Of a stretch of 49,415 bases of DNA, positions 11,816 to 43,827 are shown piece after piece. This stretch comes from Massilia cavernae (lineage in GTDB: Bacteria; Pseudomonadota; Gammaproteobacteria; Burkholderiales; Burkholderiaceae_D). The stretch covers positions 1 to 49,415 of the forward strand of contig NZ_QYUP01000094.1 of the NCBI RefSeq assembly GCF_003590855.1, written 5' to 3'. The position numbers and the translations under genes are program-made. How positions within the stretch are numbered: the first letter of the stretch is position 1; every line of letters starts with the position of its first letter. The notes beneath the pieces were generated by a model. It was given only the letters and a program-made list of their open reading frames with translations. It was not told where the DNA came from and did not search any database.

Positions 11816-13219
11816 ATGATCAAAACGCTCTACGACAAACTTTGGGAATCCCACATTGTGCGCGCCGATGAAGACGGCACCACAGTCCTGTACATCGACC
11901 GCCACCTGGTGCACGAGGTGACCAGCCCGCAGGCTTTCGACGGCCTGCGCGCCGCCGGCCGCAAGCTGTGGCGCACCTCCGCCAACCTGGCGGTGGCCGA
12001 CCATAACGTGCCGACCACCGACCGCAAGGACGGCATCGCCGACCCTACCTCGCGCCTGCAGGTCGAGACACTGGACGCCAATGCGAAGAGCTATGGCCTC
12101 ACCTACTTCAACATGAACGACAAGCGCCAGGGCATCGTGCACGTGATCGGGCCCGAGCAGGGTGCCACCTTGCCGGGCATGACGGTGGTGTGCGGCGACT
12201 CGCACACCTCGACCCACGGCGCCTTCGGTTGCCTGGCGCACGGCATCGGCACCTCCGAAGTCGAGCACGTGCTGGCCACGCAAACCCTGCTGGCCCGCAA
12301 ATCGAAGTCGATGCTGGTACAGGTCGACGGCGCGCTGCCGAACGGCGTGACTGCCAAGGACATCGTGCTGGCCGTGATCGGCAAGATCGGCACCGCCGGC
12401 GGCACCGGCTACGCCATCGAATTCGGCGGCTCGACCATCCGGGCGCTGTCGATGGAAGGCCGCATGACCATCTGTAACATGGCGATCGAAGCGGGCGCGC
12501 GCGCCGGCATGGTCGCCGTGGACGACACCACCATCGAATACGTCAAGGGCCGCCCTTACTCGCCGGCCGGTCCGCACTGGGACCGCGCGGTGGAGTACTG
12601 GCGCACCCTGCGCTCGGACCCGGGCGCGCAGTTCGACATGGTGGTCACGCTCAACGCCGCCGAGATCCAGCCGCAGGTCACCTGGGGCACCTCGCCCGAA
12701 ATGGTCACCTCGATCGACGGCCGCGTGCCCGATCCGGACCTGGAAAAGGACGCGGTGCGCCGCGACGCCATGGAAAAGGCGCTGGTCTACATGAACCTGA
12801 AGCCGAACACCCCGATCGAGGACATCCGCATCGACAAGGTGTTCATCGGCTCCTGCACCAACTCGCGCATCGAAGACCTGCGCTCGGCCGCAGCGGTCGT
12901 GCGCGGCAAGCAGCGCGCCTCGAACGTGCGCCTGGCGCTGGTGGTGCCGGGTTCCGGCCTGGTGAAGGAACAGGCCGAACGCGAAGGACTGGACAAGATC
13001 TTCAAGGACGCGGGCTTCGAATGGCGCGAGCCAGGCTGCTCGATGTGCCTTGCAATGAATGCCGACCGGCTCGAGCCGGGCGAGCGCTGCGCCTCCACCT
13101 CGAACCGCAATTTCGAGGGCCGGCAGGGGCAGGGCGGACGCACCCACCTGGTGTCTCCCGCCATGGCGGCGGCGGCCGGTATCGCCGGCCATTTCGTCGA
13201 TGTACGCGCACTGCGCTAA
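11816..13219 (+). CDS. leuC: 3-isopropylmalate dehydratase large subunit
   Basis: Aconitase-family subunit of 467 residues that, with LeuD, isomerises 2- to 3-isopropylmalate in leucine synthesis in the cytosol. The 4Fe-4S cysteines are seen in [11 protein letters not shown] and in [11 protein letters not shown]. The substrate/cluster segment [13 protein letters not shown] is present. The start at 11816 gives the family-typical [13 protein letters not shown]; an in-frame TTG 30 bases upstream has no support. Length is normal. The entericidin gene follows 31 bases downstream and then leuD. Confidence 0.97.
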
Positions 13220-13250
13220 AACTACCATCAAAACTAAAAGAGCCTCACCC

Positions 13251-13373
13251 ATGAAAAAAGTATTCGCCCTTTCCCTGATCGCCCTCGTACTCACCGGCTG
13301 CAACACCATCTCCGGCATCGGCCGCGATGTGCAAAGAGTCGGCCAGGTTGTCACCGGCGCGGGCGGGAAATAA
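13251..13373 (+). CDS. entericidin A/B-family lipoprotein
   Basis: Forty residues: a signal peptide with lipobox LTGC (Cys17 becomes the lipidated N-terminus), then NTISGIGRDVQRVGQVVTGA, the Gly/Val-rich amphipathic pattern of entericidins. It is a small bacteriolytic or envelope lipoprotein family whose role outside enterobacteria is poorly known. The gene lies between leuC and leuD, an arrangement I recall from other Burkholderiales, and is probably carried on the leu transcript. No obvious ribosome-binding site other than AAAAGAG is present. Confidence 0.85.
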   Translation: MKKVFALSLIALVLTGCNTISGIGRDVQRVGQVVTGAGGK

Positions 13374-13378
13374 TAATT

Positions 13379-13458
13379 CGGCGGATGCGGCCCCTGGCCA
13401 TGTCCGCCCTACATGAGAGCCGCCGTAGGGCGGATAAGGCTGAAGGCCGCATCCGCCG
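13379..13458. repeat. pair of inverted REP-like palindromes
   Basis: GTAGGGCGGATAAGGC...GGCCGCATCCGCC (13425-13458) faces a near-identical inverted copy (13379-13412) across 12 bases. Each copy contains an imperfect palindrome, and the two can pair with each other into one long stem. The bases strongly resemble enterobacterial REP units (GTAGGCCGGATAAGGC...GCATCCGGC), so this is BIME-like. It fills most of the 106-base ecn-leuD gap. Confidence 0.7.
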
Positions 13459-13479
13459 CACGGGGCCCAAGAAAACCCC

Positions 13480-14127
13480 ATGGACAAATTCACCCTACAC
13501 GAAGGACTGGTCGTTCCCCTCGACCGTGCGAACGTCGACACCGACGCGATCATCCCGAAGCAGTTCCTGAAGTCGATCCACCGCACCGGCTTCGGCCCCA
13601 ACCTGTTCGACGAATGGCGCTACCTTGACCACGGCGAGCCGGGCAAGGACAACAGCGGCCGCCCGCTCAACCCCGATTTCGTGCTGAACCAGCCGCGCTA
13701 CCAGGGTGCGTCTATCCTCCTGGCGCGCAAGAACTTCGGCTGCGGCTCCTCGCGCGAACACGCGCCGTGGGCGCTCGACCAGTACGGCTTCCGCGCCATC
13801 GTCGCGCCTAGCTTCGCCGACATCTTCTTCAACAACTGCTACAAGAGCGGCCTGCTGCCGGTAGTCCTGTCCGAAGCCCAGATCGACCACCTGTTCAACG
13901 AAGTGAAGGCCTTCCCCGGATTCCGCCTCGTGATCGACCTCGAGAAGCAGACCATCGGAACCGCCGACGGCAGCATCTCCTACGAGTTCCAGATCGACGC
14001 CTTCCGCAAGTACTGCCTGCTGAACGGCCTGGACGACATCGGCCTGACCCTGCGCCACGCCGACGAGATCCGCGCCTTCGAAGAACGCCACCTGGCTGCC
14101 CAGCCGTGGCTTGCCAACGTCATCTAA
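13480..14127 (+). CDS. leuD: 3-isopropylmalate dehydratase small subunit
   Basis: Swivelling domain subunit of isopropylmalate isomerase, 215 residues. The motif [15 protein letters not shown], which contacts substrate, is intact, as is the N-terminal [13 protein letters not shown] segment. It pairs with LeuC encoded upstream. The long hairpin of the REP pair lies just before its leader. Length is normal for the bacterial type, and leuB follows 15 bases downstream. Confidence 0.97.
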
Positions 14128-14142
14128 ACTGGGAACGACTAC

Positions 14143-15213
14143 ATGAAAATTGCAATCCTGCCGGGTGACGGCATTGGTCCTGAAATCATGGCGCAAGCCG
14201 TGCGCGTGCTCAATTCGCTGGGCGAAAAATTTGAGCTGGAAAGCGCCGACGTCGGCGGCGCCGGCTATGCGGCCCACGGCCACCCGCTGCCGCCCGCCAC
14301 GCTGGCGCTGGCCAAGGAAGCAGACGCGGTGCTGTTCGGCGCCGTCGGCGACTACAAGTACGACTCGCTGGAGCGCTCGCTGCGCCCGGAGCAGGCCATC
14401 CTCGGCCTGCGCAAGGAGCTCGGCCTGTTCGCCAACCTGCGTCCCGCCATCCTGTACCCGGAACTGGCCGGCGCATCGACGCTCAAGCCGGAAGTAGTGT
14501 CGGGCCTCGACATCCTGATCATCCGCGAGCTGACCGGCGACATCTACTTCGGCAAGCCGCGCGGCGTGCGCGAATGCCCCGACGGCCCGTTCAAGGGCGA
14601 GCGCGAAGGCTTCGACACCATGCGCTACGCCGAATCGGAAATCCGCCGCATCGCCCACGTGGCCTTCCAGGCCGCGCAAAAGCGCGGCAAGCGCGTCACC
14701 AGCGTGGACAAGGCCAACGTGCTGGAGACCTTCCAGTTCTGGCGCGACATCGTCACCGACGTGCACAAGGACTACCAGGACGTCGAACTCGAACACATGT
14801 ACGTCGATAACGCCGCGATGCAGCTGGTGCGCGCGCCGAAGAAGTTCGACGTCATCGTCACCGGCAACATGTTCGGCGACATCCTGTCCGACTGCGCCGC
14901 AATGCTGACCGGCTCGATCGGCATGCTGCCATCGGCTTCGCTGGACGCCAGCAACAAGGGCCTGTACGAGCCGTCGCACGGTTCCGCGCCCGACATCGCG
15001 GGCAAGGGCGTGGCCAATCCGCTGGCGACCATCCTGTCGGCCGCGATGATGCTGCGCTTCTCGTTCGGCAAGACCGAGCAGGCCAACCGCATCGAGAGCG
15101 CCGTCAAGCAGGTGCTGGCGCAGGGCCTGCGCACGCCCGACATCTACGAAGCGGGCACCACCAAGGTGGGCACCGAAGAGATGGGCAGCGCCGTCGTCAA
15201 CGCATTGAAGTAG
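14143..15213 (+). CDS. leuB: 3-isopropylmalate dehydrogenase
   Basis: NAD-dependent oxidative decarboxylase of 356 residues giving 2-ketoisocaproate. Seen: the N-terminal [11 protein letters not shown], substrate-binding arginines in [14 protein letters not shown] and [21 protein letters not shown], and the metal/NAD region [15 protein letters not shown] followed by [14 protein letters not shown]. The gene starts 15 bases after leuD, so leuCDB form one unit, and asd follows after 28 bases. Confidence 0.97.
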
Positions 15214-15241
15214 AAGATTTGAACATTAACGAGGAATGATG

Positions 15242-16384
15242 ATGAAACTAGTAGGCTTGGTAGGCTGGCGCGGCATGGTCGGCTCGGTCCTGATGCAGCG
15301 CATGCAGGACGAGGGCGATTTCAACCACATCGAACCGGTGTTCTTCACCACATCGAACGCGGGCGGCAAGGCCCCGGCGATGGCAAAGAACGAGACCGTC
15401 CTGAAGGACGCCGCCGACATTACCGAACTGTCCAAGTGCGAGATCATCATCTCGTGCCAGGGCGGCGACTACACCAGCGAGGTGTTCCCGAAGCTGCGCG
15501 CATCCGGCTGGAACGGCTACTGGATCGACGCCGCCTCGACCCTGCGCATGAAGGACGACGCCGTCATCGTGCTCGACCCGGTCAACCTCGACGTCATCAA
15601 GGACGCGATGGTCAAGGGCGTCAAGAACTACGTGGGCGGCAACTGCACCGTGTCGTGCATGCTGATGGGCCTGGGCGGCCTGTTCCAGCACAAGCTGGTG
15701 GACTGGATGACCTCCATGACCTACCAGGCGGCATCGGGCGGCGGCGCGCAGCACATGCGCGAACTGCTTACCCAGTTCGGCACCATCAACAGCGCCGTCA
15801 AGCCGCTGCTGGACAACCCGGCCGCAGCCATCCTCGAGATCGACCGCGGCGTGCTGGCGGTCCAGCATGGCATGTCGGCTGACGAGACCAGGCAGTTCGG
15901 CGTGCCGCTGGCCGGCAACCTGATCCCGTGGATCGACAAGGACCTTGGCAACGGCCAGTCGAAGGAAGAGTGGAAGGCCGGCGCCGAGACCAACAAGATC
16001 CTCGGCCGCGGCGAAGGCTTCGGCACCACGCCTAGCGAGGCCCGGGCGATCCCGGTCGACGGCCTGTGCGTGCGTATCGGTGCGATGCGCTGCCACTCGC
16101 AGGCGCTGACCATCAAGTTGAACAAGGACGTGCCGCTGGACGAGATCAACGATATCATCGCGTCCAATAACCAGTGGGTGAAGCTGGTGCCGAACACGCG
16201 CGAAGATTCGATGCATCACCTGACCCCGGCCGCCGTCACCGGCACCCTGACCATCCCGGTCGGCCGCGTGCGCAAGATGTCGATGGGCGGCGAGTACCTG
16301 TCGGCCTTCACGGTCGGCGACCAGCTGCTGTGGGGCGCGGCAGAACCGCTGCGCCGCATGCTGCGTATCATCCTTGACAAGTAA
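15242..16384 (+). CDS. asd: aspartate-semialdehyde dehydrogenase
   Basis: NADPH enzyme of 380 residues that makes aspartate semialdehyde for lysine/diaminopimelate, methionine and threonine. Seen: the nucleotide loop [13 protein letters not shown], catalytic Cys135 in GGNCTVSC, and the gamma-proteobacterial-type region [13 protein letters not shown]. Three consecutive ATGs start at 15236; the third is chosen because GAGGA sits 6 bases before it and the family begins [11 protein letters not shown]. It follows leuB closely, probably in the same transcript, and ends at a hairpin. Confidence 0.96.
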
Positions 16385-32164: not shown

Positions 32165-33448
32165 CTATTGCACCAGCGTGGGGACCAGCGGTCCGTTGGT
32201 TCCGCCGGCGATACCGGCGCTGCGGCACGGGCTGTTGGCGGCATCGGCCATGCCGCGCCATTCAAGGTAGATATCGCCGGACGCGCCATTCGACATCGGG
32301 TTGAGCATCAGCACGCAAGCCATGCTAAGGATCTTCACCGTGGCCGGCGACTTGCCGCATTCGACGATCGGCACCGCGACCAGGCGCCGCTCGCTTCCAT
32401 AAGTCAGGTGCTCGGCAGACGTCGATTCGTTGCCGCCGACGTTCCCGGCGGCGCCGTTAGGCGCATACTCGTTGGACGTGAATGGCTTGTGAAGCGCCTG
32501 CTTCAGGCGGTAGTCGGCGTAGGCGCTGGTGCCAATACCGATTACCGTGCCCGGATTCTTGCTGGGGTAGGAATAGCCGGTCTTGTCCGGCGCGACGGTG
32601 GCAGGGGTGGGCGCATTGGCGCCGTTCTGGTATATGCCGAAACGCGTGTTCCATGCGCTTTTCGCTCCCTGCTTGACGCCGGACTCGCGCACGTCGTCGC
32701 CCACCCTGACGCCGCATACCGAGCCGTTGCCCAGCAACTGGTCACGCACTTCGTTGGTGCCGCCCGAGTTGGGGGTGAAATCAACCCAACGGAAATTCCC
32801 TGCCAGCTCATCGCCGCCCGCGCCGCTGTTGAAGTTTGACGTGATCCACTGGCCCACGGAGTAGCCATAGCTGGGTGGCGTAGCGTTCAAGGAGCAAACG
32901 CCGACCGGCGACACCGCGCAAGCGGTCTGGCCGGGCGCCAGCGTCGCCACCGCGCGCGCTTCGACGGTGGTGGGCGCAATCGCTTGGCGAACTTGCATCA
33001 ACCAGGTCCGGATGGGCGCCGAACGGGCCACGCACATCGCGAATTTCGAACCCGGCAGCGCGCCTTCGTCGATGCTCAGGTAGGAGCTGTTCGGACCAAT
33101 TGCGGTATGAAACCGGATGTCGTTGCGGCCGATCGACACTGCGCGCTTCTGGAAGTCGTTCGTGTTCCTCGAGGCGACAAAGCTGCCGGCCGCCACGGCG
33201 TCTTCGAGGAAGGCGGCAGGGCAGGGGCCAACGTCCGGGTCGCACACCAATTGGTTGGCTGCGGCGAGCGCGCACGAGTCGGCGGCGTTCTGCAGTTCGG
33301 TCTTGTTGACGAACAGGTGGCCGAGGTCGAGCACCAGCGCGCCGAAGCCGACCAGGACGAAGATCGACAGGGCGACGATGATCGCGACAACGCCACCTTC
33401 GCGCCTGCGGCGCGGGAACTGGGGCCGGGAATGTGAGTTTCGTAGCAT
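32165..33448 (-). CDS. tadG: TadG-like pilus assembly protein
   Basis: Protein of 427 residues. The N-terminus RRRREGGVVAIIVALSIFVLVGFGALVLDLG is a TadG/TadE-type helix, followed by LFVNKTELQNAADSCALAAA, a hallmark of TadG proteins, and a long periplasmic domain with several cysteines. No von Willebrand-A domain is clear. It lies 12 bases after the small lipoprotein gene. Role: anchor or minor pilin of the Tad pilus. Confidence 0.88.
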   Translation of the reverse strand: MLRNSHSRPQFPRRRREGGVVAIIVALSIFVLVGFGALVLDLGHLFVNKTELQNAADSCALAAANQLVCDPDVGPCPAAFLEDAVAAGSFVASRNTNDFQKRAVSIGRNDIRFHTAIGPNSSYLSIDEGALPGSKFAMCVARSAPIRTWLMQVRQAIAPTTVEARAVATLAPGQTACAVSPVGVCSLNATPPSYGYSVGQWITSNFNSGAGGDELAGNFRWVDFTPNSGGTNEVRDQLLGNGSVCGVRVGDDVRESGVKQGAKSAWNTRFGIYQNGANAPTPATVAPDKTGYSYPSKNPGTVIGIGTSAYADYRLKQALHKPFTSNEYAPNGAAGNVGGNESTSAEHLTYGSERRLVAVPIVECGKSPATVKILSMACVLMLNPMSNGASGDIYLEWRGMADAANSPCRSAGIAGGTNGPLVPTLVQ

Positions 33449-33460
33449 GATGACCGCCGC

Positions 33461-33724
33461 CTAGCGCGCGCCTCCGATACCGATGGTGAACACATTAGGC
33501 TGCGGCTGCGGCGAGCGGTAGGACTTTTGATACGCGTCGTAGCTGCTCTTGGCGGCCTGGCCGTCGATCCCTTTCACCGGGTCGCGGTTGCTGCCGGCCA
33601 GCGGATCGATGACCTGCTGGGCCATGGCCAGGCTGACGCTGGCGCCGACCGGACGTTCATGCGCGCAGCCCGCAAGGCAGGCGGCGAGGGCGAGCAGGCT
33701 TGGGACGGTGAGGTGCGGTTTCAT
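33461..33724 (-). CDS. small lipoprotein within the Tad operon
   Basis: Protein of 87 residues with signal peptide and lipobox LAGC (Cys20), then a polar 65-residue tail rich in Gln, Ser and Pro ending NVFTIGIGGAR. AGGAG lies 6 bases before the ATG. It sits between the secretin and tadG, 9 and 12 bases from each, so it probably acts in pilus assembly, perhaps as a secretin pilotin. I recognise no named family. Confidence 0.8.
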   Translation of the reverse strand: MKPHLTVPSLLALAACLAGCAHERPVGASVSLAMAQQVIDPLAGSNRDPVKGIDGQAAKSSYDAYQKSYRSPQPQPNVFTIGIGGAR

Positions 33725-33733
33725 GGCATGCTC

Positions 33734-35221
33734 CTATTTGGTGTCAAAGCCGGAAGGCGGGGTCGCCATGGCGGCACGGCTGGGCGCAGGGCTGTCCTTG
33801 CGCTCGCCTTCCAGTTTCCCGCCCAGGAAAAACTCGGCGCGCGACGGCTCGATGTAGTCGTCGGTGGGCAGTTTGTAATCGGGCGGCAGCGGCTTGACCA
33901 GGTGCGGCGTGATAATGAAGACCAGTTCGGAACGGTCGGTCTGGAAGTCGCTGCTGCGGAACAGCGCGCCCAGCACCGGCACTTCGCCCAGCAACGGGAA
34001 GGCCTTGACGTTGGTGGTGACGTTGTTCTTGATCAGGCCACCAATGGCAAAGCTCTGGCCGTCGAGCAGCTGCACCGTGGTGGTGGCGCGGCGCGTGGTG
34101 AACGAAGGCAGGATGGCGGTGCCCGATATGCCGGTGGCGGTAATGCCGATGCCGTCCTTGTTCAGGTCCGACACTTCCGGCGCCACCTTCAGGTTGATCC
34201 GGCCGCCTGCCAGCACGGTTGGCGTGAATTTGACCGCCACCCCGAATTCCTTTTCTTCCAGCGAAATGGTCGGAATGCCGCCGTTGTTGGTCTGGCTGAC
34301 CGGAATGAAGATTTTCCCCCCGGCGAGGAAGCTGGCCTCCTGGCCGCTGACGGCCATGATGGTTGGTTCGGCCAGCACCTTCAGCAGGCCGTTGCGTTTC
34401 TGCGCGTCCAGCGTCGCGAAATTGCCATTCTTGTTGTTGAAGGCGTCGAGGATGCTCGGATTCTTGCTCAGCAGGTTGGACAGGATGCTGTAGGTCCAGC
34501 TGCCGTTGGTGCGGCTACCGCCCAGGCTGACGCCAAGCTGATCGACCAGCGTACGCGAGACCTCGGCTACTTTAACTTCGAGCATCACCTGCTGGGGCGC
34601 GGCGACCGACATCATGTTAATCACCTTCATCTGCGCCGCCCCACCGCCGGCAGCACCGCCTGCCGCCGCGCCTTCTTTCCCGCCGCGCTGGACGTAGGCG
34701 TTGGCGAGCGCCAGCATCTGGTCGAGGGTGACCACGTCGGACACGGTTCCCGACAGTACCAGCGTGTCCGCTGCGGCGGTGATCTTGACGTCCTTCTCGC
34801 CGCTGACCAGTTCCGCGAAGCGGCTGTGCAGGGCGCTGGTGTCCATGGACACTGAAATATCGATGATGGTGGCGTCCTTCTGCTTGTTCCACAGGATCAG
34901 GTTGGTCGTGCCGACCGATTTGCCGAGCATGTAGACCTCGCTCGGGTTCAGCAGGATGACGTCGGCAATCCGGGCGTCGCCGACCGACACGCGCGATACG
35001 GGATAAGGAAGGCGCATCAGCGTCGATTTGCCCTCGGCCAGGGCGACCTGCGGCGCCAGGTTCACGACGCCGCCGGCAGGCGCGGCGTTGGCCGGCTGCA
35101 TGACCTTCTTTTTAGGCGCGGCCTGGCCCGGTGCGGCGGCCAGCGCGAACGCTGCGATGACGGCGATGGCGCCGGCGCTGCGACGGCCCGTTGTGCCAGC
35201 CTGCCTCAAAAATGTACGCAT
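33734..35221 (-). CDS. rcpA: Tad pilus outer-membrane secretin RcpA/CpaC
   Basis: Protein of 495 residues. Signal peptide ends near AAPGQA-APKK. An N-domain with LPYPVSRVSVGDARIADVILL (pilus/secretin STN-BON type), then a BON-like repeat (DVKITAAADTLVLSGTV), and the secretin beta-barrel domain with EVKVAEVSRTLVDQLG, VLAEPTIMAVSGQEASFLAGG, and VPVLGALFRSSDFQTDRSELVF. The start at 35221 has AGAGG 4 bases upstream; the ATG 24 bases earlier lacks one. Confidence 0.93.
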   Translation of the reverse strand: MRTFLRQAGTTGRRSAGAIAVIAAFALAAAPGQAAPKKKVMQPANAAPAGGVVNLAPQVALAEGKSTLMRLPYPVSRVSVGDARIADVILLNPSEVYMLGKSVGTTNLILWNKQKDATIIDISVSMDTSALHSRFAELVSGEKDVKITAAADTLVLSGTVSDVVTLDQMLALANAYVQRGGKEGAAAGGAAGGGAAQMKVINMMSVAAPQQVMLEVKVAEVSRTLVDQLGVSLGGSRTNGSWTYSILSNLLSKNPSILDAFNNKNGNFATLDAQKRNGLLKVLAEPTIMAVSGQEASFLAGGKIFIPVSQTNNGGIPTISLEEKEFGVAVKFTPTVLAGGRINLKVAPEVSDLNKDGIGITATGISGTAILPSFTTRRATTTVQLLDGQSFAIGGLIKNNVTTNVKAFPLLGEVPVLGALFRSSDFQTDRSELVFIITPHLVKPLPPDYKLPTDDYIEPSRAEFFLGGKLEGERKDSPAPSRAAMATPPSGFDTK

Positions 35222-35241
35222 TGCACCTCTCCCGGTTCTTG

Positions 35242-36072
35242 TCAAAATTGTTGGGTACTGCGGTCCAGCCCCTTGATCAGATCAACCTGTTCGCGTGGAC
35301 GAACCAGGGTTGCCTTGCGGATGACAGGGCGGGCGGCGCGGGCTACCGCAGGACGCACGACAGGTGCTCCCAGCAGTGCGTTCTTGGTGGCGCCGTCGGT
35401 ATTTACCGGATCCGGATCGATCTGGTTCCTGAGCACCAGCGAAAGCGTGCCGACGCTGCGCGCCACATCCAGCTTTTCAGTCTGTTCCGGCGTCAGTTCG
35501 AGCGTCACGGCGTTGACGACCTTGGGCTTGGTGTCGTCGCGGTTGGGGTCCTGGGCGATTGCCAGGACCAGGATGCGTTCAAGGACAATTTTCGAAATCG
35601 AAATCTCGCGGTTGTTGGCCGTTTTGGTGGTGTCTTCCTGCGTGTTGACCAGGATGTCGACGAAATTGCCGGGGAGGGCAAAGCCGGCCACGCCGACTAC
35701 GTCGTTGACCCGTACCGTCATGGCGCGCTTGCCGTTGGCGACAACCGCGGACAGCCCCCCTTGCGTGCCTGGTGGCGCCAGCTTGGTTTCCATGATCGGC
35801 TCGCCGCGCTGGATGGTCGCGCGGGTCACGCGCGTGTCGATCAGCTTGGCCTGGGTGAACGCGCCGGGAGGCATTGCGCCCGACGGCCAGTCGACCATGC
35901 GGATCATTTCGGGCGTGATGCGCGAGCCCAGGCTGATGTCGACCATGGCGACCGCCACCTGGGTAGTGTTGCCGCTGGCGCGGGACTTGATCCAGCTGGC
36001 GGCGGCAATCACCGCAGCGACGGCCAGTACCAGTGCGATTCCGAGCATGACGAGTCCACGTGTATTTTTCAT
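35242..36072 (-). CDS. cpaB: Tad pilus assembly protein CpaB/RcpC
   Basis: Protein of 276 residues with one N-terminal membrane helix (about 7-25) and a periplasmic SAF/RcpC region (VAVAMVDISLGSRITPEMIR, RGEPIMETKLAPPG, RVNDVVGVAGFALPGNFVDIL). It assists the secretin. I prefer the ATG at 36072, 8 bases after AAGG, over one 9 bases upstream. It begins one base after the AAA+ ATPase stop. Confidence 0.93.
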   Translation of the reverse strand: MKNTRGLVMLGIALVLAVAAVIAAASWIKSRASGNTTQVAVAMVDISLGSRITPEMIRMVDWPSGAMPPGAFTQAKLIDTRVTRATIQRGEPIMETKLAPPGTQGGLSAVVANGKRAMTVRVNDVVGVAGFALPGNFVDILVNTQEDTTKTANNREISISKIVLERILVLAIAQDPNRDDTKPKVVNAVTLELTPEQTEKLDVARSVGTLSLVLRNQIDPDPVNTDGATKNALLGAPVVRPAVARAARPVIRKATLVRPREQVDLIKGLDRSTQQF

Positions 36073-36073
36073 G

Positions 36074-36673
36074 TCATTCACCTTTGTTTGGCGTACCTAA
36101 GCCGGTTGTCTCCGGCGCGGTGTGCTGGTCGCCGGTAAAGTAGTTTTTCCATGCCCATCCGATCGAGGCGGGCGTCAGTACCGGCGTCTCCCCTTCGTAG
36201 GCGCCTTTGTCGCGCACCTGCGACAGCAGGTCGCGCGGGTAGCATGCGAGCAGCGCGCGGTCTTCGCGCTGGTGGTATTCGCGGATCAGGTAATCAAAAG
36301 TGTCGGCGCACCAGGCAATGCCGTACTGTTCGCAGCAGCCCATGAAGATGCGCTTGTAGTCGTTTTCCAGCATCGGGCCGACGTGGACCTTGTAGCCGAT
36401 GCGGCGCAGGAAGGCGCCGTCGCCCAGCTCCGCCGGCGGCAGGTTGGACGAGAACACCACGATCACGTCGAACGGCACCTGGAACTTGTACCCGGTGTGC
36501 AGGGCCAGGAAGTCCAGCTTGCGGTCCATCGGCACGATCCAGCGGTTCAGCAGGTCGGTCGGGGAGCAGCGCTGGCGGCCAAGGTCGTCGATGATGAAAA
36601 TGCCGTTGTTGGCCTTCAGGTGGGGCGGGGCCTGGTAGTAGCGGGTGGTCTGGTCGAACTTCAGGTCGAGCAT
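36074..36673 (-). CDS. AAA+ ATPase of the Tad locus, C-terminal part in clean frame
   Basis: The 199 readable codons carry IFIIDDLGRQRCSP (Walker B region), LLNRWIVPMDRKLDFL, VIVVFSSNLPPAELGD (sensor 1) and FLRRIGYKVHVGP, the second half of a family of about 430-residue AAA+ ATPases. I recall these next to Tad genes in Massilia and Geobacter relatives. The frame stays open about 21 bases further upstream (GGELTLD) before a stop; the true N-terminal half continues upstream in shifting frames. It ends one base before cpaB, so it is part of the pilus operon. A role as accessory motor or regulator is inference. Confidence 0.8.
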   Translation of the reverse strand: MLDLKFDQTTRYYQAPPHLKANNGIFIIDDLGRQRCSPTDLLNRWIVPMDRKLDFLALHTGYKFQVPFDVIVVFSSNLPPAELGDGAFLRRIGYKVHVGPMLENDYKRIFMGCCEQYGIAWCADTFDYLIREYHQREDRALLACYPRDLLSQVRDKGAYEGETPVLTPASIGWAWKNYFTGDQHTAPETTGLGTPNKGE

Positions 36674-37440
36674 GTCGAGCGTCAGCTCGCCCCCGGGTCA
36701 GCACGGCGGGACGCGGCAAGCTTTACACAGGCGGTGGGGGTCCCGCACCAGGCCGCTCGGCGCAGCAGGTCTTTCGGCGCTGGCCGCTACCTTCCGCGCG
36801 TGGTGCACGACGGGTCGTACATCCTGGACGACTGCACCGCCGCGCATAGATTGCATACGGCACGCTGATCGGCCCGGCTCAGCAGCCCCGCGAGGCGTTC
36901 GGCCCAGGCTAGGTCTTGCCGCTGCTGCCGGGCCGTGGATGAACAATGGGCGCTGCCCGATTCATGGCAGCGCCCAGCTAGGTCCAGCACTCCGGTAGTT
37001 GACCACGACTGTCGCGCATTCTGCATTGACATCAGCCGCGCGAGATGTGCATCGCCGCCACCGCATGCGCGCCTGGATTTCGTTGCTGTAGCTTTACGAG
37101 CCGTGAACCGGCGCACGGGCCCGCGGTAGCCGCCAAGCGTTCACGGTATTCGGCGCCGCAGCACCCTCCGAGGTTCCAGTCAGCTTGTAGGAATATCGGC
37201 GTCGGTGCCGGCTCGCCAGAGTGCGGGTGACGGCCTCGCACGTTTTTCCGCACGCCATGAAGACGATCAGCGGATCGCATCGATGTTCCACGCTCAGCGA
37301 TTCATGTGTGGCCAGTATCCGCGCAGCCCGCACCAGGTCGCGCAAGGAACAGGATTTGGACCGCCATTTCGACCAGGAAATACCGAAACGGCAGGCACTG
37401 TCTCCAGGTAGTGGTTCGTGGCGGCACGTGGATCGAGTGT
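36674..37440 (-). pseudogene. frame-disrupted 5' part of the AAA+ ATPase gene
   Basis: Reading all three minus frames together recovers, in order, LVRAARILATHESLSVEH and CEAVTRTLASR (N-terminal winged-helix-like region), YRERLAATAGPCA, then PLFIHGP and GSSGKT (broken Walker A, about 36935-36955), AERLAGLLS, VPYAIYA, and RPAVLT shortly before GGELTLDMLDLKFDQ. All are the expected landmarks of the ATPase whose C-terminal half is intact. Each step needs one-base insertions or deletions, often in runs of G or C. Boundaries are approximate. Confidence 0.65.
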
Positions 37441-37559
37441 TGGTCGACGGCGACCGGGAGCAACTTTTCCTGCGTTCGGATATCGGGTTCAGCCAGCAGT
37501 TGCAGTTTACGTCATGACAAACTGCCCAGTGCACGTTCAGTACGACAAGAAGAATCGGC

Positions 37560-38100
37560 AAGCGTTCGGCGGGTGGCGACGGCGTAGGGCGAGCTTTCGA
37601 CTGACTCCGTGGGCTGTGTCGTCTCCGGCCGCTGCGCACGCCCATATGCACTAATATGTACGCTGCACAATCATTGTGCGGAGGTTGGACAGACGAGTTG
37701 GGCGCAACGGGCGCTTGCAGTGGCTGAGCGAGCAATGCCAGCACCCGCGCGTCGGTGGGCTAGCACTCGTACTTAAATTGGCTGCGGCGTGCCCAGGTAT
37801 GCGCCGACCATGGCCCATCAACTTCAACGTCGCTGCACCCATCGTGCGAAAAACGTACAATGGCATCAGGGCGAACTTTCCAACTGCCATCCCGTCCACG
37901 ATGCAAAAAATCGCGCCTTCCTCCGGACGGCGAGAATCGCTGAGATGACGACGCGAGCGTTGCGCCGGTCGCGAAACAAAGCCAGTTGGGAATGCAGCAT
38001 GCTACACGAAACGTCAACCGTCGTGCAAGCAACCAAGCATGACGACAGAGAGCCACGAGGCTCACACTGCGTTGCGTCGTACAATGACAAGATAGCGGCG
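37560..38100 (-). pseudogene. frame-disrupted prepilin peptidase TadV/CpaA
   Basis: Pieces of an A24-family aspartic peptidase appear in collinear order across frames. CIPNWLCFATGATLA (about 37955-38010) matches the R-R-I-P-N-W-L membrane motif, ALMPLYVFRTMGA and KLMG followed by GRRIPG (about 37790-37880) match PLYxxRxMGAGDVKLMAMVGAYLG, the catalytic GxGD site, and then VLALLAQPLQAPVAP. Correcting single bases restores GAGDVKLMAMVGAYLG. TadV cleaves Flp and TadE leaders, and it lies directly after flp as expected. Boundaries are approximate. Confidence 0.65.
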
Positions 38101-38179
38101 CATGGGCGACTCGTGATTGGAATTGCACCGCCCCGGCTATGGGAGCGGGCGAGTATTTTTTATTTACGGCGTGCCTGTT

Positions 38180-38341
38180 CCAAGCTCGGTCCCAAATCGC
38201 GAGTGACACTATTTCCAGCTACGTCTCCACGATGTCGAAGGAGCGATAATAACTACAGCGATCAGCGCTGCGAATCAGGCCGATATTCAATTGCCGTCTA
38301 CGCACTCTTCTTCCTGCATAAAGCTCTGATGGAATTTTCAT
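38180..38341 (-). pseudogene. frame-disrupted Flp pilin (second copy)
   Basis: An ATG at 38341 follows AAGGGGA with a 5-base spacer. Read with single-base corrections the gene gives FIRAFMQEEEG then TAIEYGLIAALIAVVIIA and DIVG-KL-TVFTAI, the complete Flp major-pilin pattern (G/T-A-I-E-Y-G cleavage-site region and one hydrophobic helix). At least eight indels are needed in about 120 bases. Flp forms the pilus fibre after TadV cleavage. The protein would be about 55 residues. Confidence 0.7.
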
Positions 38342-38401
38342 GATGGTCCCCTTCAGGTTCTAGGTAGCGATAAGGTGTGTGCTCAATGTTCAGCGCGTGC
38401 G

Positions 38402-38567
38402 TTGCATCTATCGATCCGGCTCCTACATCAATGCGATATTGACGCCGAGGACGCAGATGACGGCAAGAGAGACCAGCGAGGGCGTACTTCAATAAGATGC
38501 GAACCCCGATTTCTACCTTCGAGGAAATCGTCACGAAACGCTGGGCGTAGTTGTTCGAGAAGTACAT
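38402..38567 (-). pseudogene. frame-disrupted Flp pilin (first copy)
   Basis: An ATG at 38567 has GGAAGG 6-8 bases upstream and begins MYFSNNYAQRFV. Reading across frames gives FLED, then IEYAL-AGL-L and AVICVLGVNIAL, matching the Flp signature and its helix. It lies 226 bases upstream of the second Flp-like gene. The match is weaker than for the second copy, but the clean ribosome-binding site and position support it. Confidence 0.58.
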
Positions 38568-38869
38568 GGCTTACCTTCCACTTCTGCTGGCTCTTCGTTC
38601 GGTATTTCCTGCTCCGGATCAATACACCGCGCTGATGTCTTAATGTCATGCCCTTGCTTACCAACAACCGATCGCACCAAACGACCCTTTATGGCGGAGA
38701 CATTTGTCTGTTTTTTTGGTTGCCAGGCCGGACAACTCACGTCGCGCGATCGCACGAAGTTTTGCAGCGAGTCGCAAAGGTTCGCAAACTGGGCGCGAAG
38801 AAGAGGCGGACCGGAGCGTCGCGCGGAGATGGTTCCATCAGCAGGTCGCCAGAGGTGCGGTGTTCACCG
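38568..38869. other. leader region between response regulator and flp
   Basis: Roughly 300 bases of lower GC with no supported gene. It probably holds the promoter of the Tad operon on the minus strand. Because this stretch lies in the indel-rich block, promoter hexamers cannot be judged reliably. Confidence 0.4.
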
Positions 38870-39569
38870 CGAAGACGTCAGTTCGAGCCGGTTGTTTACT
38901 TCCAGCCTTCTTGTCAGATCGAGACCAGTAGTTTGCGCAACGTTGTGCTCCGAGCAGGAAACGGCTTGCGCGAGCGCCCCTTGTTCGTCATCCGTTGCCC
39001 TCGATGATCGCGCGACGATCTGGCGATTCCCTCATGGTGAGCCCATGCGAGTTTCGGCGTGGGGATCCGGCTTGGGAATGCGCGTGGCTGGCATGAAGGC
39101 GCCGAAAGAACGGCATCATTTCATGGTCGACCCCACAGGGGGGGCCTTATTTTCGGCCCCTTGGTCGAACTTTCTCGATGGGGCCCCGCCGCCAAATTAC
39201 CCACTTCGGCCGGCGCGTCCTTGCGCAACACGCCGCGCGCGCCGAGCCAGCCACCGCGCGGTCCAGCAGCGCCTCGTCGCGCGCTCCGACTGACAAATAC
39301 AGGGCGCGATGCGCCGTGACCAGCAGGCTGGGAAGGAAGTCGATCGAGCGATTGCGCCGTTAATGTCACAGGAGTCCGAGCAGGATCACCGTCGGCGACC
39401 AGTGTGCAGGCGGCAGCAGCGCATTCCTCGCGGATTGGATGACGCTCGCCGCCACCTTCATGCCGTACGCTTCGCTCTCTATCAGCCGTTCCCAATCCCA
39501 CAGGCATAGTCTGTGGTCCGTCCAGACCAGCATGACTCCTGATAGGAGCTTTCCTGGCCGGGATTCCAT
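38870..39569 (-). pseudogene. frame-disrupted LuxR-type response regulator
   Basis: In order across frames: VMLV and DHRLCLW (receiver start), ERLIESEAYGMKVAASV, VILLGLL (phospho-Asp strand, expected LLDL), DFLPSLLVTAH, EALLDRAV, ARGVLRKDAPAEV (conserved Lys), FGAF, then a LuxR helix-turn-helix with IVRAIIEGN, TNKALAQ-like, SEHNVAQ/LVSI and KLEVNNRLEL, ending near 38870. A start at the ATG at 39569 follows directly after the kinase end. It would be a about 230-residue partner of the kinase upstream, likely controlling the Tad operon. Confidence 0.65.
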
Positions 39570-41258
39570 GGTGGCCGCACCGTATACCGGAAATGTCGAC
39601 ATGGACCCGGATGGCCCGCCTTCGCTCGCTGGCCGACGTAAGGCGTAAGCCACCCAATGCCACGGCCCGTTCCCGAAATCGAACGCGGAACGAAAGGGGG
39701 CAGCGGGGCCCGGACGACATTCGTTTTCAATGCGGATGTGCAGCCAAGCCGTGGGTCCGGCGCAAATTTCGACCGCACCGCGCGTAGCCAAGCGTCTGGC
39801 GCGCCCTGTGATATTGCTGACGCCTTCACTGACAATCTGGAATACCTCGGCGCCGAGGCGGTCGTGGATGCCGGCCGTCTCATGTCCGCTGAGGGCGATG
39901 TCGAGGTTATAGAACTCCTTCATGTGGGACGCATGAGCGCGCAGCGCGGACGGGAATGCAGGCTCGTCGTTTTTGGCGCGCGCGAGGTTGCCGGCCAGCT
40001 CGCGCAATTCGGCAATGTAGGCGTCGGCCATGTCCGCCACCTGGCGCAGGTCGGGCGCTATCGGGTTGGCGTCGCCGGCCTTGCTCAGCAGCGCCCGCAA
40101 TACGTGCGACATGCCGATGTATGGCTGGACGGTCGTGTCGTGCAGGTCGAGCGACATCTTCACGCGCTCGCGGCGCGCCGCGTCCGACGCCATGCGGTCA
40201 AGCAATTCGATGTTCTCGATCACGGGGACGGCTTGTGCCACCACCTGCGCCAGGAAGCGCACGTCGCCCTTGTCCAGGGTGGCTTGCGGGGCAACGACGA
40301 AAATGCGGCCTTCGCCGTTTCGTAGCGGAAGGGGCACGCAGATGAACGAGCGCCCCCCGAGGATGTCGGCAAGGCTGTTGCCGATGGCTACCGGGGCCTT
40401 ATGCCATCCGGGCCGCGTGGCGTCGTTGACGAGAAATGCTCCGGGCCACGGCACGAAGGGCAGGAGCGATGCGCGGAATAGCGCGCTGCAGGTCGGCGGC
40501 GCCGCGACCAGCGGCGCTGCAGCTTCACTGTCCAGCACGCAGGGGCGGAGGGGGGCGCCGCTGGCGTTGGAGTCGGCCTTGCGCAAGATCCAGGGACAGG
40601 CGGGGTTTTCCCGCGTCAGGGAAAAACACGAGGTGGCGCCAAAGAATACCCGGATCTGTTCCAGCACGGACACAATTGTGTCCTCCACGCCAAAGCGCGG
40701 ATTCGACAAGCGGCTGACGTCGCGCAGCAAGGCGATGCGGCGCTTCTGCTTGATCGATGCCTGCGCCCAGTGCGACACCATATAGCCTAGTCCCAGCAGG
40801 AATGTGGCGCGCAGCAGCATGCGCGCCAGTTCCGTCTGGTCGGCCGCCTGCGTGGCGGCGAGGCAATACAGTACCGCGCATGCCAGCGTCACCCGCGCAC
40901 CCTCGTCGTAACCCCAACGGAATGCCGCGGTCGATATTGCAAAGAAGAAAAGGTAGAAGAATCCGGTCTGCGGTCCCGCAATAACTAATACCAGGCTGAA
41001 CCAGAACACGTCCAGCCAGTGCACCAGTTTGGAGTCGCCCAATTCGCCGCCTAGTCGCACGGAAATATAGATAACGGCGCTGTGCGCAGTGTATGCGTAA
41101 AACGCCAGTAAAGTAAACGGATGGGGATCGCCGATGCCATTGGGATCGATAATCATCGCCAATATGGTCGCGACGGCAAGTACTATGCGCATCGTTGCGA
41201 TCGGTGCGGTTTCGTCGACGTCGTCGAGCGACGCGTCGAGCCGGGTGTTGTTTATCAC
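39366..41258 (-). CDS. sensor histidine kinase (HisKA_3 type), 3' end frame-disrupted
   Basis: Membrane sensor kinase. The N-terminus has about six membrane segments (22-165), then a GAF-like region (185-350), and the HisKA_3 phosphoacceptor His373 in SLDLHDTTVQPYIG. The HATPase domain starts at EVFQIVSEGVSNI (471-483), after which frames shift at about 39805; IENEC and PFR-like pieces continue to the true end near 39590. The open frame beyond it reads into the response regulator by chance. The start is GTG at 41258 with GGGGG upstream. It is divergent from accD and next to a matching regulator. Confidence 0.82.
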   Translation of the reverse strand: MINNTRLDASLDDVDETAPIATMRIVLAVATILAMIIDPNGIGDPHPFTLLAFYAYTAHSAVIYISVRLGGELGDSKLVHWLDVFWFSLVLVIAGPQTGFFYLFFFAISTAAFRWGYDEGARVTLACAVLYCLAATQAADQTELARMLLRATFLLGLGYMVSHWAQASIKQKRRIALLRDVSRLSNPRFGVEDTIVSVLEQIRVFFGATSCFSLTRENPACPWILRKADSNASGAPLRPCVLDSEAAAPLVAAPPTCSALFRASLLPFVPWPGAFLVNDATRPGWHKAPVAIGNSLADILGGRSFICVPLPLRNGEGRIFVVAPQATLDKGDVRFLAQVVAQAVPVIENIELLDRMASDAARRERVKMSLDLHDTTVQPYIGMSHVLRALLSKAGDANPIAPDLRQVADMADAYIAELRELAGNLARAKNDEPAFPSALRAHASHMKEFYNLDIALSGHETAGIHDRLGAEVFQIVSEGVSNITGRARRLATRGAVEICAGPTAWLHIRIENECRPGPAAPFRSAFDFGNGPWHWVAYALRRPASEGGPSGSMSTFPVYGAATMESRPGKLLSGVMLVWTDHRLCLWDWERLIESEAYGMKVAASVIQSARNALLPPAHWSPTVILLGLL

Positions 41259-41584
41259 ATGGCCCCCTATGCCAGCGACAGGCGCATGTCATTATGTGCC
41301 TGCTTTAATTACTAATTTCTTATTAGAAAATATACTCTCGAACTCTTACTCAGGTCAATTCTTTTAAACAATGCTGCGAGTAAATATACCTTTGTTTCGA
41401 AAAGTGTACGTACGAACGCACGGGCGAAATTGAACAACCTGTAAAATAATTCAGCGACGCTAAGGCGATGTAAATGCGTGTATTTGTCGCCGTGGGAAAT
41501 GATGGCAAATTCACACGATTCGACATTCGAAGCGCGAACGGCTACACTACCGACCACTGAAGATCGCTGTACGAAGGAGAACTC
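41259..41584. other. AT-rich divergent intergenic region between kinase and accD
   Basis: A 326-base interval, clearly lower in GC than its surroundings. It contains the accD promoter candidate (41520-41548). An 81-codon open frame on the minus strand (41312-41557) has no start signal or family match and is not called. This interval is the right-hand edge of the Tad insertion. Confidence 0.5.
41520..41548 (+). promoter_or_regulatory. accD promoter
   Basis: TCGACA (41520-41525, 5/6) and TACACT (41543-41548, 4/6) with a 17-base spacer, ending 37 bases before the accD ATG. A promoter of its own explains how accD stays expressed although separated from the trp operon. Confidence 0.6.
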
Positions 41585-42457
41585 ATGAGTTGGTTAGAAA
41601 AACTGCTGCCCCCGCGGATCCAGCGCTCCGATGCCGCTGCGCGTAAGACCATGCCGGAAGGCCTCTGGGTAAAGTGTCCGTCGTGCGAAGCGGTTCTCTA
41701 CCGCACCGATCTGGAGTCGAACCTGCATGTTTGCCCGAAGTGCAGCCACCACATGCGCATCCGCGCGCGCGATCGCCTCGATGCGCTGCTGGACGAAGGC
41801 GGACGTTATGAAATCGGCCAGGAAACCCTGCCGGTCGATACCCTGAAGTTCAAAGACAGCAAGAAATACCCTGACCGCCTGAAAGCGGCGATGGACGCCA
41901 CTGGCGAAACCGACGCGCTGATCGTCATGGGCGGCGCCGTCATGAGCCTGCCTGTGGTCGTGGCCTGCTTCGAATTCGAATTCATGGGCGGCTCGATGGG
42001 CTCCGTGGTCGGCGAGCGCTTCGTGCGCGGCGCCCAGGTCGCGCTGGAGCAGAAGGTGCCGTTCATCTGCATCACCGCCACCGGCGGCGCGCGCATGCAG
42101 GAAGGCCTGCTGTCGCTGATGCAAATGGCGAAAACCACCGCCATGCTGACCAAGCTGTCCGAGAAAAAGCTGCCGTTCATTAGCGTGCTGACCGATCCGA
42201 CCATGGGCGGCGTGTCCGCGTCGTTCGCCTTCATGGGCGACGTCGTGATCGCCGAGCCGAAGGCGCTGATCGGCTTCGCCGGCCCGCGCGTGATCGAAAA
42301 CACCGTGCGCGAAAAGCTGCCTGAAGGCTTCCAGCGCGCCGAGTTCCTGGTCACCAAAGGCGCCGTCGACATGATCGTCGACCGCCGCAAGATGCGTGAA
42401 GAAATCGCCCGCCTGCTCGCGCTGCTCCAGAGCCAGGCCGTCGACGTCATCGCGTAA
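41585..42457 (+). CDS. accD: acetyl-CoA carboxylase carboxyltransferase subunit beta
   Basis: Beta subunit (290 residues) of the carboxyltransferase that makes malonyl-CoA. The N-terminal zinc ribbon uses Cys31, Cys34, Cys50 and Cys53 ([17 protein letters not shown]). The crotonase-fold core shows [31 protein letters not shown] and [20 protein letters not shown] lies 7 bases before the ATG. folC follows 65 bases downstream, as in most Burkholderiales. Confidence 0.97.
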
Positions 42458-42522
42458 AGCCTCACATCGCCATACCGGCCGCGCGTCCATGCGACGCGCG
42501 CGCCGCCAACGAAGCACATCCC

Positions 42523-43827
42523 ATGCAAAACCTCCCGACCACATTGCCTGCCTGGCTTGCGCTGCTCGAGTCGCGCCACGCCGAAGTCCACATCGACATG
42601 GGGCTAGACCGGGTGAGAACGGTCAAGGAGCGCATGGGCCTGAAGTTCGACTGCCCGGTGATCATGGTGGCCGGCACCAACGGCAAGGGCTCGACCTGCG
42701 CCATGCTCGAAGCGATCCTGCTGCGCGCCGGCTACAAGGTCGGCCTGTACATCAAGCCGCACTTCCTCGACTTTAACGAACGCGCCCGCATTGGCGGCGA
42801 CCTCGCCAGCGACGAGGCGCTGGTGACCAGCTTCAACGCGGTCGAAGCGCGGCGCGAGGACGTATCGCTGACCTATTTCGAATTCACCACGCTGGCCATC
42901 ATGCACCTGCTGGCGAACTCGAACCTCGACGTCGCCATCCTCGAAGTGGGACTGGGCGGGCGCCTCGACGCGGTCAACGTCATCGACGCCGACGTCGCCA
43001 TCGTCACCTCGGTCGACATCGACCACACCGACTACCTTGGCGACACGCGCGAAAAGATCGGCTTCGAAAAGGCCGGCATTTTCCGTCCCGGCAAAGCGGC
43101 GATCTGCAGCGACCCGGTTCCGCCGGAGTCCCTGATCAAGCACGCCGAAGAAATCGGCGCCGACCTGTGGCTGCTGGGCCGCGACTTCAACTACGCGGGC
43201 GACAAGCAGCAGTGGAACTACGGCGGCCGCAGCCAGCGCCGCAATTCGCTGGCCTATCCGAGCCTGCGCGGCGCCAACCAGCTGCTCAACGCCTCGGCCG
43301 CACTGGCTGCGCTGGAAGTGCTGCGCCTCGAACTGCCGGTGGGCGCGCAGGAAGTGCGCACCGGCCTGGTGGTGGTCGAGCTGCCGGGCCGCTTCCAGGT
43401 GCTGCCTGGCCGCCCGACCGTCATCCTCGACGTCGCGCACAATCCGCACGCGGCGTCGGCGCTCGCGTCGAACCTCGGCAACATGGGCTTCCATCCCTTC
43501 ACCTACGCGGTGTTCGGCGTCATGCAGGACAAGGACATCGACGGCGTGATCAAGCCGATGCTGGAACATGTCGACCACTGGTGCGTGGCCGACCTGCCGT
43601 CGCCGCGCTCGGCCTCGTCCGGCGAACTGGCGGAAAAGCTGCAGGCGCTGCGTCCGGCAGACGCGAAAGAGGGCGAGTTTTCCGCCACCGCCTTCCCTGA
43701 TCCGGCACAGGCGTACGCGAATGCGATGAGCCGGGCCGGGGAGAATGATAGAATTGTGGTCTTTGGCTCCTTCTACACCGTCGCAGGCGTGATGGCAGCC
43801 CGAAAATCCTCACTCACTGACAAATAA
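42523..43827 (+). CDS. folC: bifunctional folylpolyglutamate / dihydrofolate synthase
   Basis: Mur-ligase-family enzyme of 434 residues that joins glutamate to dihydropteroate and to folate. The P-loop is VAGTNGKGST, the Mur signature VGLGGRLDAVNVID and SVDIDHTDYLGDT are present, and the C-terminal domain has VILDVAHNPHAA. No strong ribosome-binding site lies upstream. The next gene begins 4 bases after the stop. Confidence 0.96.
   Translation: MQNLPTTLPAWLALLESRHAEVHIDMGLDRVRTVKERMGLKFDCPVIMVAGTNGKGSTCAMLEAILLRAGYKVGLYIKPHFLDFNERARIGGDLASDEALVTSFNAVEARREDVSLTYFEFTTLAIMHLLANSNLDVAILEVGLGGRLDAVNVIDADVAIVTSVDIDHTDYLGDTREKIGFEKAGIFRPGKAAICSDPVPPESLIKHAEEIGADLWLLGRDFNYAGDKQQWNYGGRSQRRNSLAYPSLRGANQLLNASAALAALEVLRLELPVGAQEVRTGLVVVELPGRFQVLPGRPTVILDVAHNPHAASALASNLGNMGFHPFTYAVFGVMQDKDIDGVIKPMLEHVDHWCVADLPSPRSASSGELAEKLQALRPADAKEGEFSATAFPDPAQAYANAMSRAGENDRIVVFGSFYTVAGVMAARKSSLTDK

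Follow-up and report, generated by a model that had tools for sequence, protein, structure and literature searches.

Why do five adjacent genes of a tad/flp pilus locus in the draft genome of Massilia cavernae lose their reading frames within a single 3.1-kb stretch, between flanks that read cleanly? The window, i.e., the whole stretch of DNA that was analysed, is an entire contig (C195, 49,415 bp) of a 5.44-Mb draft assembly with 201 contigs and 93.65% completeness, and the genes concerned encode a histidine kinase, a LuxR-type response regulator, a Flp pilin, a TadV-type prepilin peptidase and an ATPase. An earlier note, made from the letters alone, had described a region saturated with small insertions and deletions (indels) at 36690-39810 and had read it as uncorrected long-read sequence as opposed to gene decay. 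Our analysis leads to the same answer: positions 36693-39809 are most likely raw long-read sequence that entered the assembly without correction, probably at a gap between accurate contigs that was closed with a long read. The patch is most likely an assembly artefact, ordinary in kind, with no real biological feature behind it.

The extent of the patch was determined by a seven-state coding hidden Markov model (HMM), which was trained on long open reading frames (ORFs) of the window outside 36001-41500, on three other genome pieces, and on two related genomes, G002 and G004. The patch limits were not supplied to the model, and the surrounding region was excluded from its training. The model returned one long non-coding run in the region, 3,117 bases from 36693 to 39809, which places both limits within 3 bases of those proposed before. 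Counting frameshifts with the same model was rejected inside the patch, where it makes 0 frameshift calls because the indel density makes it choose the non-coding state; the non-coding run itself was used as the patch marker in place of such counts.

We further compared the region with G002 and G004, the nearest relatives from the same genus that possess the same locus, and counted strictly only those indels that are identical against both. There are 144 such shared indels in 36690-39810 (102 insertions and 42 deletions, one per ~22 bases), and 112 of them are one base long. The first of the closely spaced shared indels lies at ~36695 and the last at ~39810. By the same strict count, the flanks contain 5 shared indels in 33500-36680, 11 in 39850-41250 and 1 in 41550-43000; outside these counts are 33001-33499, with a few shared indels, both border gaps, and the intergenic segment 41251-41549, which has ~12 shared indels and where G002 and G004 also differ from each other. 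Pair-HMM rates, which are averages over alignments, give a patch insertion opening of 8.6–8.8% and a deletion opening of 4.0–4.3%, i.e., ~13 events per 100 bases or one per ~8 bases, whereas indel opening in the flanks is 0–0.3% (0–0.3% over 35242-36692 and 0–0.2% over 39830-41258). As a control, G002 and G004 aligned with each other over the same genes demonstrate an insertion opening of 0.6% and a deletion opening of 0.4%, so that indels in the patch are 12- to 13-fold above the control. The frame changes every 10–30 bases that had been noticed by eye are thus in rough agreement with both densities (22 bases per indel in the strict count, 8 in the pair-HMM), and the density and the predominance of single bases correspond to what is seen in raw reads, namely several indels per 100 bases, mostly of one base. 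Both edges of the patch are abrupt and fall inside genes, the left one in the ATPase gene and the right one in the kinase gene, with indel-poor sequence beyond, as had been claimed from the letters.

Genes that read as broken may also reflect true pseudogenisation, that is, a pilus operon that lost its function and decays by small indels, and the even distribution of window-specific substitutions over codon positions in the patch (see below) would agree with such decay. However, a decaying pseudogene should gain substitutions no more slowly than indels. The pair-HMM substitution rate is 24–25% in the patch versus 23% between G002 and G004 over the same genes, so that substitutions have hardly risen above the control and have not followed the 12- to 13-fold rise in indels. 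The flanking genes each diverge at their own pace (18–19% on the left and 33–34% on the right), and the strict count gives 197 shared substitutions in the patch versus 221 in the left flank, a stretch of almost the same length. The abrupt edges inside genes, whose remaining parts are clean, likewise speak against decay of an operon.

The question of whether such patches depend on the function of the genes they hit was addressed by a coding HMM scan of 140 pieces of the same assembly (2,134,824 bp with the window included, ~2.09 Mb outside it), using a threshold of at least 1.2 kb for non-coding runs, which shorter patches would escape. The scan yielded 785 frameshift calls in 2.13 Mb (~0.4 per kb) and 19 non-coding runs, two of which are patches: the one in the window and a second one on contig C14 at ~53246-55103 (13246-15103 of piece L218). 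The second patch covers 1,858 bp and has 124 shared indels relative to G002 and G004 (68 insertions and 56 deletions), with pair-HMM insertion and deletion openings of 6.4–6.7% and 4.9–5.3%, compared with 0.12% and 0.17% between the relatives. Its flanks at L218 12800-13240 (441 bases) and 15110-15700 (591 bases) have zero indels by the pair-HMM, and the strict count gives 0 shared indels in 12800-13240 (441 bp) and 10 in 15110-16250 (1,141 bp). Further shared indels are found to the left of L218 12800, including four at 12653-12788, where the relatives differ much from each other. The genes of G002 at this position include an ATP-binding cassette (ABC) transporter permease (PF00528) and a solute-binding protein (PF01547). 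The same kind of dense one-base indels therefore recurs elsewhere regardless of gene function, in transporter genes unrelated to the pilus, and its presence at two unrelated loci is strong evidence that the cause is not decay of the tad locus. Taken with the flat substitutions and the in-gene edges, pseudogenisation is very unlikely.

Two discrete, sharp-edged patches might also be produced by targeted hypermutation, in which some cellular mechanism would introduce small indels at ~13 per 100 bases into chosen loci while adding almost no substitutions. Against it, the two patches hit different types of genes, and the search for direct repeats of at least 18 bases in 36000-40500 returned none, the only repeat found there being one imperfect inverted pair that lies outside the patch. 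We know of no system that makes indels at such a rate with hardly any substitutions, although no literature search aimed at such systems was made. Hypermutation of this kind appears to us extremely improbable.

The other non-coding runs of the scan do not add a third patch where they could be compared. Five of the 19 runs are rRNA (ribosomal RNA) operons, two in L186 and one each in L204, L219 and L220. The run at L237 16879-20000 (contig C155) is a 3.1-kb non-coding run of low guanine-plus-cytosine content (0.50) that is truncated where the piece ends; only its two ends have counterparts in G002 and G004, and it looks like an insertion. The run in L184 can be compared over its right part only and with G002 only, where one blastn alignment of 1,022 columns has 9 gap openings and another of 72 columns has none. 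Both L237 and L184 look ordinary where comparable. The run in L195 has no usable match in the relatives, and nine runs stood outside the comparison with relatives (two in L107 and one each in L132, L158, L111, L141, L209, L214 and L129). A rough extrapolation suggests about three to four patches in the whole genome, and more if the uncompared runs add to them; it takes its rate from the sequence outside the window (one patch in ~2.09 Mb), as the window itself was selected for its patch.

The presence of long reads in the underlying data is suggested by contig C61 (55 kb), which traverses complete rRNA operons flanked on both sides by protein-coding sequence. An exact repeat of 2,113 bp is also present on C61. 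Since whole rRNA operons are rarely reached through by short reads alone, this contig is consistent with long reads in the data, and we infer that they were used for this assembly. Long reads would have bridged gaps between accurate contigs, with the bridging sequence staying uncorrected, and the indels would then have come from errors in a single-molecule read, or in very few such reads. That inserted raw long-read segments need error correction is stated in the TGS-GapCloser paper (PMC7476103). The uncorrected long-read gap fills in hybrid assemblies that this paper describes resemble the present patch in having an error-prone stretch between accurate ones, abrupt edges and frame-breaking indels; the difference is that here the read origin is inferred. 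A further likeness is found in published work on errors that make intact genes look like pseudogenes and that are recognised against relatives. In its example assembly, Pss508, such errors amount to <0.05% of the sequence, whereas the present assembly has them concentrated in discrete patches, with ~13 events per 100 bases. The original reading of the window as uncorrected long-read sequence is thus supported by the excess of indels, the flat substitution rate, the edges within genes, the second patch and the rRNA-spanning contig.

As a side observation, C61 (pieces L186, L219 and L220) carries three rRNA operons, the first of which is cut by the contig start. Matches to a group II intron follow two of the 5S copies on this contig and recur further along it.

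Long reads could have entered the assembly in another form, as an unpolished consensus of many reads instead of raw-read sequence. An example of such an assembly may be the relative G005, which has 56 frameshift calls in 17 kb at the locus. However, when G005 is aligned with G006, three blastn pieces with a total of 16,940 aligned columns contain 198 gap openings, or ~12 per kb including natural differences, whereas the patch has ~130 indel events per kb. The rest of the scanned part of the Massilia cavernae assembly is clean, at the ~0.4 frameshift calls per kb given above. We therefore regard an unpolished consensus as very improbable. As for G005 itself (one contig, 48% complete), the abundance of frameshifts at its locus (L023) probably means that its long reads were assembled without polishing, and the low estimate of its completeness may have the same origin.

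With respect to the platform, insertions outnumber deletions ~2:1 by openings in the first patch. One-base insertions, the only class covered by the homopolymer test in this patch, do not cluster in homopolymers: of the 80 insertions, 43 (54%) stand alone, compared with a background of 58%. PMC5514472 reports PacBio errors of ~11% insertion and 2% deletion, whereas PMC8486125 reports, for bacterial Nanopore data, that deletions are the most frequent errors and that about half of the errors are due to homopolymers. The Nanopore profile, led by deletions and homopolymer errors, is not matched in the first patch, and the second patch is nearly balanced by openings. Because of the 2:1 excess of insertions and the lack of homopolymer preference, PacBio continuous long reads fit the first patch better than Nanopore reads. 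This is only a guess, and it stays a guess since the second patch is nearly balanced and is 35–38 bases shorter than the relatives, its deleted bases exceeding the inserted ones.

Several observations weigh against an origin from raw long reads. First, the read origin, the platform and the assembly step are all deduced from the assembled sequence. Second, window-specific substitutions in the first patch are spread evenly over the three codon positions (10.6, 10.1 and 12.4%), in contrast to the uneven split in the left flank (5.7, 2.4 and 16.2%) and the intermediate one in the right flank (14.1, 12.3 and 19.5%). This even spread is ambiguous, as it can be explained by read errors combined with misalignment near indels and equally by relaxed selection, and it favours neither side. 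Third, substitutions in the second patch amount to 20–21% versus 12% between the relatives, with 15–20% in its own flanks, so that a small substitution excess is possible there. Fourth, the insertion excess is only ~1.3:1 by openings in the second patch versus 2:1 in the first, and the PacBio ratio in PMC5514472 is steeper than either. Finally, only one further patch was found in ~2.09 Mb, and 10 of the long non-coding runs had no informative comparison with relatives.

Which genes does the patch hide? In both G002 and G004 the locus is open and possesses the same gene order, i.e., histidine kinase, LuxR-type response regulator, Flp, TadV-type peptidase and ATPase, and in G002 the CpaB/RcpC gene comes next after the ATPase. 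Pfam searches of the relatives identified the response regulator (PF00072 and PF00196), Flp (PF04964) and the TadV-type peptidase (PF01478); the ATPase is so labelled from a weak AAA_16 match that falls short of the Pfam cut-off, and the G002 kinase has a HisKA_3 match that misses its cut-off narrowly. The corresponding features of the window are as follows.

35242..36081, minus strand: clean flanking cpaB/rcpC gene (Pfam RcpC, 1.8e-29; 81% identity to G002).
36074..36692, minus strand: clean 3' part of the ATPase gene (ORF 36074-36673; tblastn of the G002 ORF; indel rate 0–0.3% over 35242-36692).
36693..39809, no strand: indel-saturated patch (no coding frame in the coding HMM; 144 shared indels; pair-HMM rates).
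36693..37345, minus strand: upstream portion of the ATPase gene, full of indels (the G002 ATPase ORF matches as far as 37345 in tblastn).
37660..37920, minus strand: recognisable remnant of the TadV-type prepilin peptidase gene (tblastn E=4e-11; PF01478 in G002 and G004).
38233..38337, minus strand: recognisable remnant of the flp pilin gene (weak tblastn match, E=0.009; PF04964 in G002 and G004).
38865..39536, minus strand: indel-ridden LuxR-type response regulator gene (tblastn E=2e-20, 37% identity; Pfam on relatives).
39632..39809, minus strand: indel-ridden 3' tail of the histidine kinase gene (main tblastn frame of the G002 kinase ends at 39693; the piece 39632-39706 is at chance level, E=0.35).
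39810..41258, minus strand: clean 5' part of the histidine kinase gene (ORF 39366-41258; HisKA_3 above the cut-off; indel rate 0–0.2% over 39830-41258).

The tad/flp operon of the window therefore has the same gene order as that of G002 and G004, but the genes that are open in the relatives are unreadable in this assembly. The survival of the protein order had already been recognised from the letters, together with two flp genes, of which only one is supported (PF04964). The second was not confirmed: the small ORF of G002 has no Flp match, and neither has the small ORF tested in G004, which was possibly read in the wrong frame. A Pfam search of the nine ORFs that overlap the patch found nothing above the curated cut-off. 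An Flp profile search of the whole genome gave a single match, on contig C12, and missed the flp gene of the window, in line with the earlier expectation that the patch would conceal pilin genes from annotation.

In the real chromosome, the genes for the kinase, the response regulator, the pilin, the peptidase and the ATPase are probably all intact at this position. Annotation of the assembly would likely show a pilus operon in which the pilin, peptidase and response regulator genes cannot be read, and on C14 a sugar-type transporter that looks broken, whereas the organism probably has both the pilus and the transporter genes intact. The error is passed on to surveys of gene absence and of pseudogenes when they draw on such drafts. 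Even without the reads, such patches can be flagged by a coding-frame scan, as it placed the limits of the first within 3 bases and led to the second.

In the plasmid collection, 74 records match the query, and the 20 listed cover 5–11% of it, in the ATPase part. Elsewhere in the same genome, the open Flp gene on C12 lies near the end of that contig (40513-40647), and matches to the cpaB and ATPase region are found on C122 (14372-15720), which suggests a second tad-type locus.

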